A DNA stretch of 44,318 nt from Candidatus Methylomirabilota bacterium. Lineage in GTDB: Bacteria > Methylomirabilota > Methylomirabilia > Rokubacteriales > CSP1-6. A model generated the notes under the pieces. It saw nothing but the letters and a program-made list of their open reading frames with translations, was not told the origin of the DNA and did no database searches. A program made the translations under genes and the position numbers. The stretch is from assembly GCA_035709005.1 (NCBI GenBank), contig DASTFB010000092.1, positions 1-44,318 on the forward strand, written 5' to 3'. Of the stretch, positions 1 to 6,684 are shown in pieces. Each line of letters begins with the position of its first letter. Position 1 is the first letter of the stretch.

Positions 1-1410
1 CCGGAGCTGCTCGGTGCGCACCCGGACCTTCTCCTCCAGGCCCCGGCTGAGCTCCTCGATGGTCTGGAAGCTCTCGGCCCGGTCCACGGCCATGGCCACA
101 TGGTTGGCCACGGCCGCCAGCAGCTCGGCGTCGCTCTCGCCCAAGCGGCCGGGCTCGCTGGCAGCCAGGGTGAGGACGCCGAAGACGCGGCCTTTGACCC
201 TGAGCGGCAGCGCGACGAAGCTGCGGACGTTGAAGGCGCGGACGCTCTCTCTATGGACCGGTTCGTCGGCGGCGTCGACGTCGTGCACGAGCACGGGAAC
301 GCCGGTGACGGCGGCTTTCGCTGAGCCGCTGACCCCGGCCTCGAGCGGAATCTCGTATCCTTCGAACCGCGGACCGGCGCCCGCACCGACGGCGCGATGG
401 CCCCGGAGCACCCCACGGTCCTGGTCGACGAGGAACAGGTGGGCGGCGGGATAGCCCATGCGGTGGACCAGCCGATCGAGCGCCTGGTCGTAGATCCGCT
501 CGGGATCGAGGGCGGCGTTGACGGCAGCGGACAGCTCGATGAGCAGCGAGAGCTGCTCGATCTTGGATTCCAGGTCGCGGAACTTCTTCTCCAGCTCGTT
601 GTTGGAGTAGATGACCTCCTCGCCCTGGAGGTCGAGCAGGCGCTCCGTGTGCCGGCGCCGCTCGCGCTCGCGCAGCCCGAGGCCGAAGGCGACGCCCGAC
701 ACGAGGGACAGCCCGACCGCGATGGCGTAGGCGGCCCAGGGCAGGCCGGGGAGCGCAAACGCCCCCAGCGCCGCCAGGATGACACCACCGATGCCGCCGG
801 CGACGGTCGCAATCCAGAAGCGCCGGCCCAGCGAAGGGTTTTTCCAGCGAACCTCGATCAGACAAGCTTCGTCCCCGCGGGCCGCGCAGGTGCGCTCGAC
901 GACTACGGCCCGGGGTAACCCCCAGTTCGTCGGGAACCGCTCGAAGACGATGTTCCGCATCCGACAGGCCCATAGGGGGGCCCGGAACCCCGGCAGCGGG
1001 GTGCTGCGGAACCGGGCGTGAGCGCGACCCACCTCGAGGGTCTCGAACTTGCCCCAGCGCATCTGCTGGTGCTGAAAGATGTCCTGCCGCAGGTACACCG
1101 TCCGGGGGTCGCCGATCCCCATGGAGTACGTCCCCAGGTACGAGCGCTCCTCCCGCGACGGCTTCCAGTCCATCGCGAATTCCCAGAGCTCCCGCTGGAA
1201 ACGCTCCTCGTCGGCCTCGCCCGCGAGCTGCTGGGCCAGCCGCATGAGCTCATTGGCCAGCCCCAGGGGAATCCAGTTATGGTCGGCCATCAACCAGTCC
1301 CGAGGGCGCCCGGCGGCGCGACAGATCGCCGCGACGCCCTCGGGGCCGGCCCGCCGCTCCACGAAGGGGATCAGGACCTTCGTGACCAGGCAGTTCACTT
1401 CACCCGGCAT
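1..1410 (-). CDS. Membrane-anchored GAF sensor protein, probable histidine kinase (3' end beyond the window)
   Basis: The open frame runs 470 codons from ATG 1410 to base 1 without a stop, so the C-terminus lies outside the window. Residues 1-190 form a soluble N-terminal region containing CAARGDEAC (about 175-183). This resembles the cysteine-containing end of V4R/heme-NO-binding-like sensory domains, but that match is only a guess. Two hydrophobic helices follow (about 198-240), then a charged coiled coil, a GAF domain (about 295-440; RSFVALPLRVKGRVFGVLTL is characteristic) and a second coil containing EEKVRVRTEQL, which normally leads into a histidine kinase core. The kinase core itself is not visible. 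The start lies 5 nt beyond the OsmC stop, so the gene is probably last in the ROK-hydrolase-OsmC run. A diguanylate cyclase or phosphatase output is also possible. Confidence 0.75.
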   Translation of the reverse strand, partial: MPGEVNCLVTKVLIPFVERRAGPEGVAAICRAAGRPRDWLMADHNWIPLGLANELMRLAQQLAGEADEERFQRELWEFAMDWKPSREERSYLGTYSMGIGDPRTVYLRQDIFQHQQMRWGKFETLEVGRAHARFRSTPLPGFRAPLWACRMRNIVFERFPTNWGLPRAVVVERTCAARGDEACLIEVRWKNPSLGRRFWIATVAGGIGGVILAALGAFALPGLPWAAYAIAVGLSLVSGVAFGLGLRERERRRHTERLLDLQGEEVIYSNNELEKKFRDLESKIEQLSLLIELSAAVNAALDPERIYDQALDRLVHRMGYPAAHLFLVDQDRGVLRGHRAVGAGAGPRFEGYEIPLEAGVSGSAKAAVTGVPVLVHDVDAADEPVHRESVRAFNVRSFVALPLRVKGRVFGVLTLAASEPGRLGESDAELLAAVANHVAMAVDRAESFQTIEELSRGLEEKVRVRTEQLR

Positions 1411-1415
1411 GCGGG

Positions 1416-1979
1416 TCAGCGCGGCTTGTACACGAAGTTGGAACTCACCTTCACCGGCGCGGTCAGGGCATCGAGGACGGGCGACTTGCGGTCGATGGTC
1501 TCCTTGCACCGGCGGACCTTGTCCTCGGGGGCCGAGCTCTTGATCGTCACCGTGTAGCGGATGTCGCTGAAGCCGTTGCGCACCGTCTTGTCGTGCCCGA
1601 GCAGGCCCCGCAGGTCGATGTCGGCTTCCATGTCGATGTCGAGGCCGTCGATCGGCACCTCGAAGAGGGCGGCATTGGCGGCGATCCCCGCGGTCAGGCA
1701 GCCAGCGAGCGCCCCCAGCAATACCTCGATGGATGCCGGCGCGCCGTCGACCCCGCCCAGCCCGGGAGGCGCATCGCCGGTCATGATGAAGCTGCGGGTC
1801 CGGGGCGTGGCCCGTCCGTTGACGCCCTGATGCTCCCCCAGCTCCACGAGGGACTTGGTCCCCCGGAGCCACGAGGACCGGACCTTCACGGTGCGCTTGC
1901 CGAGGGCCGGGTTCTCGCGAACCTTGCGATCGAGCTCCTTCATCGCCTCGACGTTGACGTCGTTCATCTGATCGGCCAT
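1416..1979 (-). CDS. OsmC family protein
   Basis: A 187-residue member of the OsmC/Ohr fold family, thiol-based proteins that often reduce organic hydroperoxides. The family core is seen in APASIEVLLGALAGCLTAG, which carries the first conserved cysteine, and in the C-terminal RKSPVLDALTAPV. There the second (resolving) cysteine position is serine, so a standard two-cysteine peroxidase cycle is doubtful; serine is seen in some OsmC subfamilies. The start is ATG 1979, because AAAGGAGA lies just upstream and would fall inside the coding region if the ATG at 1997 were used. It follows the hydrolase-glycosyltransferase stop by 14 nt and precedes the sensor gene by 5 nt, so co-transcription is likely. 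Confidence 0.85.
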   Translation of the reverse strand: MADQMNDVNVEAMKELDRKVRENPALGKRTVKVRSSWLRGTKSLVELGEHQGVNGRATPRTRSFIMTGDAPPGLGGVDGAPASIEVLLGALAGCLTAGIAANAALFEVPIDGLDIDMEADIDLRGLLGHDKTVRNGFSDIRYTVTIKSSAPEDKVRRCKETIDRKSPVLDALTAPVKVSSNFVYKPR

Positions 1980-1993
1980 GGGGAATTCTCCTT

Positions 1994-4045
1994 TCACAAG
2001 AGGTCGGCGATCAGCCGGGCGGCGCGCTCGGTGCCGCCCGACGCGGGTTCACTCCAGTGCACGGGCTTGCCCAGGTGATCCAGGATGGCGGCGCCCAGCT
2101 CCTCGGGCGTCGTCCGATCGTAGTCCATCCGCGCGCCGGCGCCCAGCCGCTCCAGGCGCCGGCTGACGAAGAACGTCTGCTCGAAGTGATTGCGCAGCGG
2201 GAAGTACAGGAACGGAGTGCGCAGAGCCGCCAGCTCCATCGTCGTGGTCAACCCTCCCTGGACGATGGCCAGGTGCGCGGCGGCGTGGTGGCGGAAGAGG
2301 CTCGGCACGAAGGGCCGCACGTCCAGGCGGGGATGCCGCGGCAGCTCGCTCGGGTCGAGCCGGGGTCCCGCGACCAGGATCATGCGGGCGTCGGGAATCC
2401 GGCCGGCGATCAGCCGGAAGGCCTCGGCGCACTTGAGGAGCAAGCTCTTGCCGACTCGCGTGCCCCCCACGGACACGACGATGATCCGCTCATCCTCCCT
2501 GAAGCCGAGCTGGCGGCGGAGGGCGGCCCGGTCCCGGAAGTCGGCGGGGTCGAACTGGTAAGTGTACCCCGAGAAGCGAAAATGCTCGCGCGCCCACTGG
2601 CGCATGTTGGGCAGGTCGGGCCCGAAGGGCCGGTCGAGCACGTCCTCCTCGTCGCCGACCATGAGCGAGAGGTCGCGCACGTCGGGGTGCAGGCGCAGGT
2701 GGTCGATGTTCTCGGCATTCTTCTCCCAGGCCCGCTTGAATTCGAGCGAGGCCGGGTCGTCCCGCATGGGCAGCATGCCGATGAAGTCGGTCATGAACAC
2801 GTACGGGGCCGACTTGATCTCGGGGTTCTCGTGCAGGTAGTAATCGAGGTCCCAGCCCTCGTCGCCCACCCACAGGTCGTAGCCGCCGCCCTCCACCACG
2901 TCGGCGAACACCATGAAGTTGGCGGCCATGATCTCGTCCATGTCCCAGAGCGCGTTGAAGGCGTGCAGCTCGTGGTCGGCCGTGACCCAGCTCTCCATGT
3001 GAGCGCTCTCGTTCAGCAGGAGCTCCGTGGCCGGGTGCAGGCGCTCGCCCATCTCCTGGACGACACGCCGGGCCGGGTCGGCGGCCAGGAACTCCACCGT
3101 GGCGTCCGGATGGATCGCTCGGATCTGGCGGGCGATGGCGATGTCGCGCTGGATGTGGCCCAGGCCGATGGGGCTCGACAGCCACAGGATGCGCCGCCGG
3201 GATGACCGCTGCGGCGGCCGGGACGGGACCTTTCGCTCGGCCATGGGCGGGATGCGCTGAGACTCGACGGGCCGGTCGAGAACGAAGTCACGGATGAGCC
3301 GGTTGACCTTGGCCGCCTCGCGGCCCGGCAGCCCGTGCCCGCCCTTGGCGAAGGTGACGAGGCGGGCGCCCGGGACCGCCTCGGCGAACTTGCAGCCGTG
3401 CGAGTAGGGCACGATGGGGTCGTCGCTGCCGTGCAGCAGCAGCACGGGAATTCTGAGCTGGCCCAGGAGATCGCCCACGTTGTCCTTCTCGAGCTGGCGC
3501 AGGGCCTCCACGAAAATGTCGGGCGTGGTCTCCCCCATCCACCGGATCGCGTCTTCCACGCCCTTGAGCGAGTGGGGTTCGGGGTACGCCTTGGTAACCA
3601 GCCGGGTCCGCCAGCCGTCGAAGTCCTCGCGGATCACCCGGGCTACCCGCTCCTCGAAGGGCTTGGGCAGGGACTGCGCGTACTGGGGAGCAATGCCGAC
3701 AAGGCGACTCACACGCTCCGGATGCTCGACGGCGTAACGGACCGCCAGCATGCTCGCGCAGGAGTAGGCGACGAGGACGACCGGATACCGCGCCGTCTCG
3801 TCCAGCACGGCGACCATGTCGTCGTAGCGGCTGGCGAAGTCGTACCCCGTCGCGGGCCGGCTCGAGCGTCCGTTGCCCCTCGGGTCAAGGGTGATCACGC
3901 GGAAGTACCGCGCAAGGTACGCGATGTTGTTCTTCCATAGTCGGCTGTAAAAAGCGGGCTGAGAGGGGGGATGGAGCAAGATGTCGCAGGGGCCACTCCC
4001 CGTCGTCTGATAGTAGATCCGCGCCCCGGGGCGTTCGAGATACAT
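1994..4045 (-). CDS. Alpha/beta hydrolase fused to a MurG-like glycosyltransferase
   Basis: A single 683-residue frame joins two enzymes. Residues 1-260 are an alpha/beta hydrolase: oxyanion region LLHPPSQP, nucleophile elbow AYSCA (Ser95 in place of GxSxG), acid GSDDP (about 207-211) and His237 in GGHG. After an Arg/Pro-rich linker (about 262-285), residues 286-683 resemble GT-B glycosyltransferases (glycosyltransferase family 28 C-terminal type): an N-terminal glycine loop SPIGLGHIQRD, a central VVSVGGTRVGKS, and QGGLTTTMELAALRTPFLYF, which matches the nucleotide-sugar-binding part. Start ATG 4045 has GAGGTGA about 7 nt upstream; the open frame reaches 4213 but the extra residues have no family match. 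It follows the ROK kinase by 25 nt. Substrates cannot be told from sequence. No internal stop or frameshift was seen, so the fusion looks real. Confidence 0.8.
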   Translation of the reverse strand: MYLERPGARIYYQTTGSGPCDILLHPPSQPAFYSRLWKNNIAYLARYFRVITLDPRGNGRSSRPATGYDFASRYDDMVAVLDETARYPVVLVAYSCASMLAVRYAVEHPERVSRLVGIAPQYAQSLPKPFEERVARVIREDFDGWRTRLVTKAYPEPHSLKGVEDAIRWMGETTPDIFVEALRQLEKDNVGDLLGQLRIPVLLLHGSDDPIVPYSHGCKFAEAVPGARLVTFAKGGHGLPGREAAKVNRLIRDFVLDRPVESQRIPPMAERKVPSRPPQRSSRRRILWLSSPIGLGHIQRDIAIARQIRAIHPDATVEFLAADPARRVVQEMGERLHPATELLLNESAHMESWVTADHELHAFNALWDMDEIMAANFMVFADVVEGGGYDLWVGDEGWDLDYYLHENPEIKSAPYVFMTDFIGMLPMRDDPASLEFKRAWEKNAENIDHLRLHPDVRDLSLMVGDEEDVLDRPFGPDLPNMRQWAREHFRFSGYTYQFDPADFRDRAALRRQLGFREDERIIVVSVGGTRVGKSLLLKCAEAFRLIAGRIPDARMILVAGPRLDPSELPRHPRLDVRPFVPSLFRHHAAAHLAIVQGGLTTTMELAALRTPFLYFPLRNHFEQTFFVSRRLERLGAGARMDYDRTTPEELGAAILDHLGKPVHWSEPASGGTERAARLIADLL

Positions 4046-4070: not shown

Positions 4071-5075
4071 TCATGGTTGCGATGCGGTCGCCGGACGTTC
4101 CCCCCGTCGGCCCAGCTCGTAGAGGACGAGCGCGGCGCCGCCCCGCACGGTCTGCCGTTTGTCGACGGGGACGAAGCGGATCGACGTGCCGGCCAGGGCG
4201 GGAGCCAGCGCATGGGCCGCGACGGCGGCGCGAATGTCCGGCTCGAAGCGGGCCAGCGACGTCGCCACCCCGCCGGTGATGATGATCAGCCCGGGGTCGA
4301 CCGCGTTGATGATCGCCCCGACCGCAACGCCCAGGGCCTGACAGGCCCCGTCGACCAGCTGCCGGGCCAGCGGATCTCCCGCCTCGGCAGCTTCGAAAAT
4401 GCGAGCGGCCGTGATCTCCTGGGTATCGCCGTCGGCCAGCCCGGAGAGGCTCGACGCCATCCCCATGGCCAGCAAGCGGGTCGCCGTTTCAGCCAGCGCC
4501 CTGCCTCCCACCCGTTGATTGAGACAGCCCCGCCGCCCACAGATGCATGGTGGGCCGTCACGTTCGACGGGCATGTGCCCGAACTCCCCCGCGCAACCAC
4601 TGTGGCCGCGAACGAGGCGGCCGTCCAGGACGAGAGCCCCGCCCACTCCGGTACCGACGGCGACCACGGCCAGCGAGCGCGCGCCCCGGCCCAGTCCGAA
4701 CGTCAACTGCCCGACGGCGAGGGCATTGACGTCGTTCTCCACGAACGCCGGCACGCCGGTGGAGGCCTGTAGGTGCTCGGCCACTGCCACGTGGGCGAGC
4801 TCGGGGACGAGATTCATCGAGCTCACCACCATGCCTCGGTCGATGTCGACGATACCAGGCAAGCCGACACCGACGCCTTCGAGGTGGAAGCGGCGGTTCC
4901 GGGCGCGCTCGACCAGCTCATCCACGACCGCCATCAGGGTGTCCAGCGCGTTGCCCTGCCGACGCGTGGGCGACTCGACGGCCGTCAGCACCTCACCCTG
5001 CGGCGTGAGCAGCCCTCCGGAGATGGACGTCGCTCCCACGTCGATCCCGATGATCACCGGCTCCATGGCCTTCAT
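4071..5075 (-). CDS. ROK family sugar kinase (glucokinase-like)
   Basis: A 334-residue ROK protein (repressor, ORF, kinase family) without a DNA-binding N-terminus, so it is expected to be a cytoplasmic ATP-dependent hexose or N-acyl-hexosamine kinase. The phosphate loop is GIDVGATSISGG (10-21), the catalytic aspartate is Asp115 in ENDVNA, the ROK motif GEFGHMPVE carries His167, and zinc is bound by CICGRRGC (Cys177, 179, 184). ATG 5075 has GGAG close upstream; ATG 5066 with AAGG is an alternative. The gene heads a run with the hydrolase-glycosyltransferase, OsmC and sensor genes. The neighbouring glycosyltransferase suggests sugar metabolism, but the sugar is unknown. Confidence 0.9.
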   Translation of the reverse strand: MKAMEPVIIGIDVGATSISGGLLTPQGEVLTAVESPTRRQGNALDTLMAVVDELVERARNRRFHLEGVGVGLPGIVDIDRGMVVSSMNLVPELAHVAVAEHLQASTGVPAFVENDVNALAVGQLTFGLGRGARSLAVVAVGTGVGGALVLDGRLVRGHSGCAGEFGHMPVERDGPPCICGRRGCLNQRVGGRALAETATRLLAMGMASSLSGLADGDTQEITAARIFEAAEAGDPLARQLVDGACQALGVAVGAIINAVDPGLIIITGGVATSLARFEPDIRAAVAAHALAPALAGTSIRFVPVDKRQTVRGGAALVLYELGRRGERPATASQP

Positions 5076-5207: not shown

Positions 5208-6590
5208 CTACGGCCGGAGCGCGGCAAGGAGCTCGCCCAGAGGGGGGTCGGCCGCGAGCCCGTCCACAGTCCTGATCACCCGTTCGGCCTGTTCGCGAGG
5301 CAACACGAGCGAGGCGTTGCCGACGAACTTCGCCTGCACTTCCTGCCGCGTGAGCGGGGAATCCGGCCCGCCCCGCGGCCGGTCACGGCGCTCGCGGACC
5401 ACCCGGCCGCCGGCGAGCGTGATCTCGACGTCGCCCACGAACTGACGGGGGTAGTCGATGGTCGGATCGATTTCGTAGCCGACCCGCCGGGCGACGTCGA
5501 GCACCTCGGGATCGCGGACGGCCTCGTCGGTGAACTCGGCCAGCCCGGCCCGGCCCTTGATCAGGATCACGGCGACCAGGTACGGCAAGCTGAACTTCGC
5601 GGCATAGCCGTTGGGTGGTCGGTGCTTGGCGGCGAGCGGCTCCCACAGGCGGGGCAGCGGCCCCGCCGCGGTGCGGCAGCGGACGGCCGTGACGTCTCCG
5701 GCCCGGATCCGATGCGCCTCGCGCAGCCGGAGCGCGCAGTCCATGTACGGCTGCGCGATCGAGCCGCAGGGATAGGGCTTCAGCGTGAGCTGCTCGAGCT
5801 CCCATGCTCGCCCCAGACTCTCCAGGAGCGCCTGGAGCCGGGTGGGGTCGTGAGAGCCGGCAAAGGCCGCGTAGAGACCGTGCGCGCCCTCGAACACGCT
5901 CTCGGGCCCGGTGAAGCCTGAGCGGGCGAGCAGCGTGGCCACGACGCCGGCGTGGGCGGCCCAGCCGGGGTGCAGCCGCTTCGTCCACGACCCGTCCGCG
6001 AGGTACTCGATGATGCCGGCCGCCTGGCTGCCGCATACGCCGAACGCGTGCACGAGCTGGTCCTCGGCGAGGCGATAGAGCCTCCCCGCGGCGGCGGCGG
6101 CCGCGAAGCCGCCGGCGATGGCCGTCGGATGGAAGTGGCGGGCATGCAGCGCGCCGGGAACAGCCAGACCCACGCGGCACATGACCTCGACACCCGCGAT
6201 CAGGGCCTCCAGCACCGCCTGGCCTCGCGCCCCCACCGCCTCGCCCACCGCCAGCGCGGTCGTCACGGCGACGCAGCCGGTGTGGACGATGGCATCCTCG
6301 CGCGTGTCGTCGAAATCCAGGCCGTGGGCCAGCGTGGCGTTGGCCAGGACGGCATTGGCCGATGCCGTCCGGGCCCGGGTGCCGAGCAGCCCGCTCTCGG
6401 GCGTCCCGCCCAGGCGCTCGGCCACGTCGAGCACGGCGCGGCCGAAGTCCTCGCGTGACGCCGCCAGGCCGTTGCCGAGGGTATCCAGCGCGAGCAGCGC
6501 GGCCTTGTCGACTACCGGCGCCGGCACCCGGTCCAGCGTGAGGCCCAGGACGAAGCGGGCAAGCTGTCTGGCGGCGGTGGCAACAGCCAC
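5208..6590 (-). CDS. MmgE/PrpD family protein
   Basis: A 460-residue MmgE/PrpD protein, close to the usual family length. Members include 2-methylcitrate dehydratase and other dehydratases or epimerases acting on small carboxylic acids. Typical family signatures are LANATLAHGLDFDDTRED near the N-terminus, ARHFHPTAIAGGFAAAAAAG, FGVCGSQAAGIIEYL, DGSWTKRLHPGWAAHAG and LKPYPCGSIAQPYMD. The start is taken as GTG 6590, with AAGGGG 6 nt upstream; the frame is open further upstream but that part has no homology and crosses the region of a plus-strand remnant. No prpB or prpC lies beside it, so methylcitrate cycle membership is not shown, although a citrate/methylcitrate synthase homologue lies 5 kb away. 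Confidence 0.88.
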   Translation of the reverse strand: MAVATAARQLARFVLGLTLDRVPAPVVDKAALLALDTLGNGLAASREDFGRAVLDVAERLGGTPESGLLGTRARTASANAVLANATLAHGLDFDDTREDAIVHTGCVAVTTALAVGEAVGARGQAVLEALIAGVEVMCRVGLAVPGALHARHFHPTAIAGGFAAAAAAGRLYRLAEDQLVHAFGVCGSQAAGIIEYLADGSWTKRLHPGWAAHAGVVATLLARSGFTGPESVFEGAHGLYAAFAGSHDPTRLQALLESLGRAWELEQLTLKPYPCGSIAQPYMDCALRLREAHRIRAGDVTAVRCRTAAGPLPRLWEPLAAKHRPPNGYAAKFSLPYLVAVILIKGRAGLAEFTDEAVRDPEVLDVARRVGYEIDPTIDYPRQFVGDVEITLAGGRVVRERRDRPRGGPDSPLTRQEVQAKFVGNASLVLPREQAERVIRTVDGLAADPPLGELLAALRP

Positions 6591-6684
6591 GAGGCCCCTT
6601 CTACGCCGGGGCCGGCGCCGTTGACAAGCCCTCGCCTTCCCGGTACCGTCCCCTCTCGATCCCAGGCGGGGCAGATGCCCCGGC

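Follow-up and report, generated by a model that had tools for sequence, protein, structure and literature searches.

A stretch of DNA of 44,318 nucleotides from a Candidatus Methylomirabilota bacterium (contig DASTFB010000092.1; hereafter "the window") contains a reading frame which an earlier note had described as an alpha/beta hydrolase fused to a GT-B glycosyltransferase (GT). This locus raises two questions, i.e., whether its 683-residue product is one protein or two adjacent genes joined by a sequencing error at the linker, and what a protein of this architecture may do. Both domains were found in a single frame, each half has its own Pfam match (see below), and a structure prediction of the whole protein yielded a model with both domains present (mean pLDDT 86.9, pTM 0.85); the one-chain architecture thus holds, and so does the view that the pairing is unusual. 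A longer frame is open from position 4213, and the methionine start at 4045 is common, in the alignment, to the window copy and to those of genomes G002, G089, G082 and G095. The coordinates of the gene, its domains and its neighbors are given in Table 1.

Table 1. Coordinates in the window of the hydrolase-glycosyltransferase fusion gene, its parts and the adjoining genes.
Feature	Position	Strand	Remarks
GAF-domain sensor kinase gene	1..1410	minus	ATG 5 nt past the OsmC stop; runs off the contig end; GAF_2 74.5 bits
OsmC-like gene	1416..1979	minus	ATG 14 nt past the fusion stop, preceded by AAGGAG; OsmC 59.7 bits; kept in 7 genomes
Hydrolase-GT fusion gene	1994..4045	minus	683 aa; start codon ATG at 4045, final sense codon to 1997, stop codon 1996-1994; 15 full-length copies
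GT-B glycosyltransferase-like domain	1997..3199	minus	residues ~283-683; Glyco_tran_28_C, model and fold match
Linker	3197..3271	minus	residues ~258-283; differs from clade to clade in the alignment
Alpha/beta hydrolase domain	3272..4045	minus	residues ~1-258; S95/D209/H237; Abhydrolase_1 and fold match
ROK-family kinase gene	4071..5075	minus	upstream of the fusion, at 25 nt; ROK 194.4 bits; kept in other genomes

The joining of two genes by an error at the linker, which the earlier note had named as the finding that would speak against a fusion, was ruled out by 15 stop-free copies from 12 genomes that cross the linker. Of these 12 genomes, seven belong to the window's phylum (G000, G001, G002, G030, G036, G082 and G089) and five (G132, G238, G334, G441 and G491) to the phylum of G095, a record titled Gemmatimonadales. 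Excluded from this set were the copies in G033 (in two pieces, at contig edges), G095 (at a contig edge), G029 (apparent frameshift near residue 639) and G007 (a hydrolase remnant only, the GT half being lost), as well as the copy on the Deinococcus sp. QL22 plasmid NZ_CP097150.1 (L069:20019-22070), where an in-frame stop at codon 472, counted from the annotated start, has led to the annotation of two separate genes. Trees of the hydrolase half and of the GT half showed the identical three clades, with support of at least 0.99 at the clade-defining splits; the two trees disagreed at 7 of 12 splits, every one of which lies within clades. Purifying selection on both halves is indicated by the dN/dS ratios of six chosen pairs, which were 0.20-0.40 in the hydrolase part and 0.15-0.25 in the GT part. 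Tandem or near-tandem second copies of the fusion were present in G001, G002 and G030 (loci L070, L071 and L072); the paired copies belong to clades A and B and are approx. 45% identical, with the triad intact in both. Overall, it is nearly certain that the hydrolase and the GT are truly parts of one polypeptide chain.

The N-terminal half belongs to the Pfam family Abhydrolase_1 (PF00561; 98.4 bits, gathering cut-off 25.8). Residue conservation was assessed in an alignment of 17 of the 21 gathered rows, from which four fragments had been dropped. D209 and H237 are kept in all 17 rows and S95 in 16, the 17th row being a contig-edge fragment with a gap at this position; the triad follows the order seen in PF00561 members, and the description of an intact Ser-Asp-His triad in the earlier note was therefore correct. 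The textbook serine elbow of alpha/beta hydrolases is G-x-S-x-G, and the superfamily tolerates variation in this motif. The window copy carries A-Y-S-C-A in place of G-x-S-x-G; by clade, the elbow reads x-S-C-A in the A clade, to which the window copy belongs, and S-R-(G/S) or S-x-G in the others, with S-x-S-x-G in the C clade.

A fold search with the model of the whole protein gave an aryl esterase as the best match (Z 30.1, rmsd 2.5, 255 residues aligned), along with Est816 (Z 28.9, rmsd 2.5, 249 aligned), D14 (Z 28.8, rmsd 2.6, 251 aligned) and RsbQ (Z 27.7, rmsd 2.9, 253 aligned). With the aryl esterase, the enol-lactonase PcaD and the AHL-degrading Est816, the window protein shares the fold and the Ser-Asp-His triad (Z 28.7-30.1 over ~250 residues); unlike these hydrolases, it has an A-Y-S-C-A elbow and a fused GT. 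Among the NCBIfam hydrolase subfamilies, it scored under every curated cut-off given (e.g., PcaD, 87.7 vs. 255.85). LipJ, a hydrolase-adenylate cyclase, is similar in that an alpha/beta hydrolase is attached to a second functional domain; in the window protein, however, this second domain is a GT-B fold, and its score against the LipJ model was 49.8 bits as compared to a cut-off of 800. The N-terminal half may hydrolyze an ester, a lactone or a thioester.

As D14 and RsbQ rank just behind the esterases in this search, one could also hypothesize, by analogy with D14 strigolactone receptors, RsbQ, hydrolase-cyclase and hydrolase-LuxR proteins, that the hydrolase would act as a sensor, gating the attached GT through the binding or slow cleavage of a signal. 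Two-component genes lie within the same gene run as the fusion, the hydrolase at locus L018 is the C-terminal part of a kinase/cyclase-type protein, and a hydrolase-LuxR fusion in genome G299 adjoins a partial gene for MddA (methanethiol S-methyltransferase); all of these would be consistent with a sensory role. The D14-like scores, however, fall inside the spread of ordinary esterases, and we consider this hypothesis very improbable.

The C-terminal half is a member of Glyco_tran_28_C (PF04101), with 26.4-27.8 bits against a gathering cut-off of 22; in one relative the same match reached 49.9 bits. As only hydrolases were listed when the whole model was used for the fold search, the GT half was folded (pLDDT 86.3) and searched separately. 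The GT-B fold was found to span the whole half, with matches to GtfD (Z 26.9, rmsd 3.8, 351 residues aligned), a macrolide GT (2iya; Z 26.8, rmsd 3.5, 341 aligned), MurG (Z 25.5, rmsd 3.5, 308 aligned) and UDP-GlcNAc 2-epimerase (Z 24.5, rmsd 3.9, 327 aligned), as well as YojK and CalG. As the GT-B fold also includes epimerases (i.e., UDP-GlcNAc 2-epimerase), this fold does not in itself prove sugar transfer.

In a profile search, the C-terminal part of the GT half aligned with UGT109A1, YjiC, OleD and MurG. The protein thus resembles both the small-molecule GTs of family GT1 (MGT, YjiC, OleD and GtfD) and MurG (GT28) in its two-Rossmann GT-B fold and its alignable C-terminal sugar-nucleotide region. 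H297 and R300 are invariant (17/17 rows), as are Q596-G597-G598, E604 and E622-Q623 (16/16 rows reaching them). Unlike GT1, the fusion has an invariant Q-G-G where the two GT1 alignments displayed have H-G-G, and the N-terminal G-L-G-H pattern of the GT half is one that we take to be closer to MurG than to GT1. The GT half scored well under the cut-offs for both MGT and MurG; for MGT (TIGR01426), the scores were 36.8 bits for the whole protein and 38.3 bits for the GT half alone, as compared to a cut-off of 260. The UDP/TDP-sugar donor site of this half appears to resemble that of small-molecule glycosyltransferases, and sugar transfer would be the predicted activity.

The distribution of the fusion is rare and patchy. 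Within the window's phylum, 9 of 95 genomes gave matches to the GT half at E < 1e-100, and the fusion was found in 5 of 395 genomes of the second phylum (Gemmatimonadota), where a sixth match (G357) represents a hydrolase only. Two further, overlapping samples contained the fusion in 4 of 245 and 4 of 396 genomes and added one genome (G491), while a genome-contig scan yielded three loci (two from Rokubacteria and one labelled Gemmatimonadales). Phyla beyond these two were sampled via plasmid and phage records only; query coverage of at least 80% was observed for one of 72,556 plasmid records and none of 50,697 phage records. A viral or phage origin was rejected, as the GT half had no relative among viral contigs and the phage matches, none of which covered 80%, were to the hydrolase half only. 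An anti-phage defence system was likewise rejected (0 PADLOC families at E ≤ 0.01). The Gemmatimonadales metagenome-assembled genome G095 (L090; JAUYMC010000083.1) shows the Rokubacteria-type ROK-fusion arrangement, with 68% identity to the window's type, on a contig of only 3.3 kb, and this contig may therefore be misbinned or transferred. Overall, the fusion is a rare pairing of known folds, and the pairing itself is new; we found no paper on such a hydrolase-GT fusion in the open-access literature.

In the window, the ROK kinase, fusion, OsmC and GAF sensor kinase genes form, in this order, a tight run, and the GAF kinase matches a full GAF-HATPase_c homologue in L070. The same fusion-OsmC-GAF kinase arrangement was observed in seven members of the window's family (G000, G001, G002, G030, G033, G082 and G089); the ROK gene is upstream of the fusion on one contig in six of these, and in G033 it is on the contig with the other end of the gene. 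Further upstream in the window, on the same strand as the ROK gene, is an MmgE/PrpD family gene (5208-6656, minus strand). The earlier note had reported a ROK kinase next to the fusion, as is indeed the case (25 nt upstream), and had proposed a sugar pathway on this basis. While conservation of the ROK gene in the window's family agrees with that proposal, no ROK gene was found at five Gemmatimonadota-phylum loci, which instead have TetR and (in four of the five) MddA, and a sugar pathway is thus part of the picture only.

One possible explanation along these lines would be biosynthetic tailoring of a secreted or cell-envelope glycoside, with the ROK kinase providing a sugar phosphate, the GT building the glycoside and the hydrolase trimming an acyl group. 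The close placement of the ROK gene in the window's family, the MurG/natural-product GT fold of the C-terminal half and the tandem second copies in G001, G002 and G030 would all fit such a role. On the other hand, the scanned neighbors included no other sugar-nucleotide or glycoside-pathway gene, no ROK gene was found at the five loci mentioned above, and the genes that adjoin the fusion (OsmC, GAF kinase) are of a stress or sensing type. Tailoring is thus an unlikely explanation.

A different neighborhood was observed outside the window's family. In four genomes (G238, G132, G334 and G491), TetR, the fusion and MddA are located in this order on one strand; the MddA proteins scored 352, 348, 351 and 362 bits, respectively, against the methanethiol S-methyltransferase model (NF045656; cut-off 270). 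MddA is thus directly downstream of the fusion in 4 of the 5 genomes of the Gemmatimonadota phylum in which the downstream gene can be seen, and a class I SAM methyltransferase occupies its place in G441. The TetR proteins of the Gemmatimonadota-phylum loci and the Deinococcus plasmid, where the same TetR is upstream of the broken fusion (L069), are approx. 65-74% identical; the TetR range given for G491 holds one stop and extends into the start of the fusion gene. In the window's phylum, MddA above the cut-off was found in 1 of 95 genomes (G007), where it adjoins ROK and the fusion remnant and contains an in-frame TAG. A contig-edge MddA piece with 241 bits (below the cut-off) adjoins the alpha/beta hydrolase-LuxR-type HTH fusion of G299 (L134; C71:717-1835, minus strand). 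No mention of a hydrolase-GT partner of MddA was found in the open-access literature, including the accessible portions of PMC5607357 and PMC12904073, nor was a paper found there that treats MddA, methanethiol and a glycosyltransferase together.

In G029, the gene order is TetR, fusion, an SBP56 family gene, SCO1/SenC and then a GntR-type regulator. The accessible portions of PMC5739008 describe mtoX with SCO1/senC and mauG as a methanethiol-oxidase arrangement; the SBP56 protein of G029 scored 254.5 bits, far under the MtoX cut-off of 650, and no mauG was seen beside it at this locus. The window's genome (G000) has an MtoX above the cut-off (747.9 bits; C23:49774-57449, L143) on a contig other than that of the fusion, with an SCO1-like gene nearby, and also a second, weaker SBP56 gene. 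Co-occurrence of MtoX with the fusion was not supported, as matches at E ≤ 1e-60 were found in 5 of 10 genomes with the fusion or a remnant as compared to 48 of 95 genomes overall. A selenium route (SBP56, OsmC-like selenoprotein model) was also rejected; the OsmC protein scored 62.5 against a cut-off of 95 for OsmC_like_Se, no selenosugar synthase was among the GT-half matches listed, and one passage of PMC5322559 was of no help. Similarly, a neighbor of the Deinococcus copy was rejected as the sulfur enzyme SfnB (74.9 vs. 430.9 bits), as HsaA scored higher.

The association with MddA was further assessed in the sample of 395 genomes, in which MddA above the cut-off was found in 10 genomes, the fusion in 5 and both, in adjoining positions, in 3; the probability of this overlap by chance is ~1e-4 if relatedness is ignored. 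Seven of the ten MddA-bearing genomes in this sample had no fusion, and the four fusion-MddA pairs, all within a single phylum, are possibly not independent of each other. No MddA match was found on the Deinococcus plasmid or in the window's own genome, and any sulfur link for the window protein is thus drawn from its relatives.

The presence of TetR upstream of the fusion could alternatively reflect inactivation of a xenobiotic or antibiotic unrelated to sulfur, where an esterase or lactonase together with a GT would disarm a natural product (e.g., a macrolide), TetR would sense it and MddA would be an incidental thiol or other methyltransferase. The best, though weak, family matches are macrolide esterases for the hydrolase half and MGT/Mgt for the GT half, and the structure of the latter matches GtfD, CalG and macrolide GTs. 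These family matches are all far under curated cut-offs, however (36.8 vs. 260 for MGT), and such families are the usual nearest neighbors for any divergent member, whereas MddA is well over its own cut-off. We regard inactivation as possible, yet rather unlikely.

The explanation that we propose is a two-step enzyme by which a small (thio)ester or lactone is hydrolyzed and then glycosylated as part of reactive-thiol or organosulfur handling; we advance it tentatively, at somewhat short of an even chance. The N-terminal serine hydrolase would open a small ester, lactone or thioester, and the C-terminal GT-B half would add a sugar to the freed group or to the same scaffold, or else to the partner of the freed product. 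The suggestion in the earlier note that the hydrolase may take off an acyl or ester group, either prior to glycosylation or following it, is plausible. Coupling in one chain could allow an unstable or toxic intermediate to be passed between the two sites, and the module would serve reactive-thiol or organosulfur handling, with MddA, co-encoded in relatives, methylating methanethiol. The fusion and its conservation, the triad, the folds of the two halves and the gene neighborhoods are observed; the two catalytic activities, the passing of an intermediate from site to site, the small-molecule nature of the substrate and the thiol connection are inferred, and the thiol connection is the weak part of the whole explanation. 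A more specific version, in which the hydrolase would release a thiol (e.g., methanethiol) from a thioester or a compound akin to it, the GT would cap the partner or the thiol as a glycoside and MddA would methylate the volatile thiol, appears distinctly doubtful.

Without the sulfur link, the finding is a conserved serine hydrolase and GT-B pair in one chain, which is useful for annotation, where the two halves receive separate names or the whole protein carries the name of just one of them. Should the MddA link prove functional, the protein would be newly placed in the pathway from methanethiol to dimethyl sulfide in soil, in uncultured phyla. If, moreover, the reading with thiol release and glycoside capping were true, the fusion would add a source or sink not seen before to the cycling of methanethiol and dimethyl sulfide by soil bacteria.
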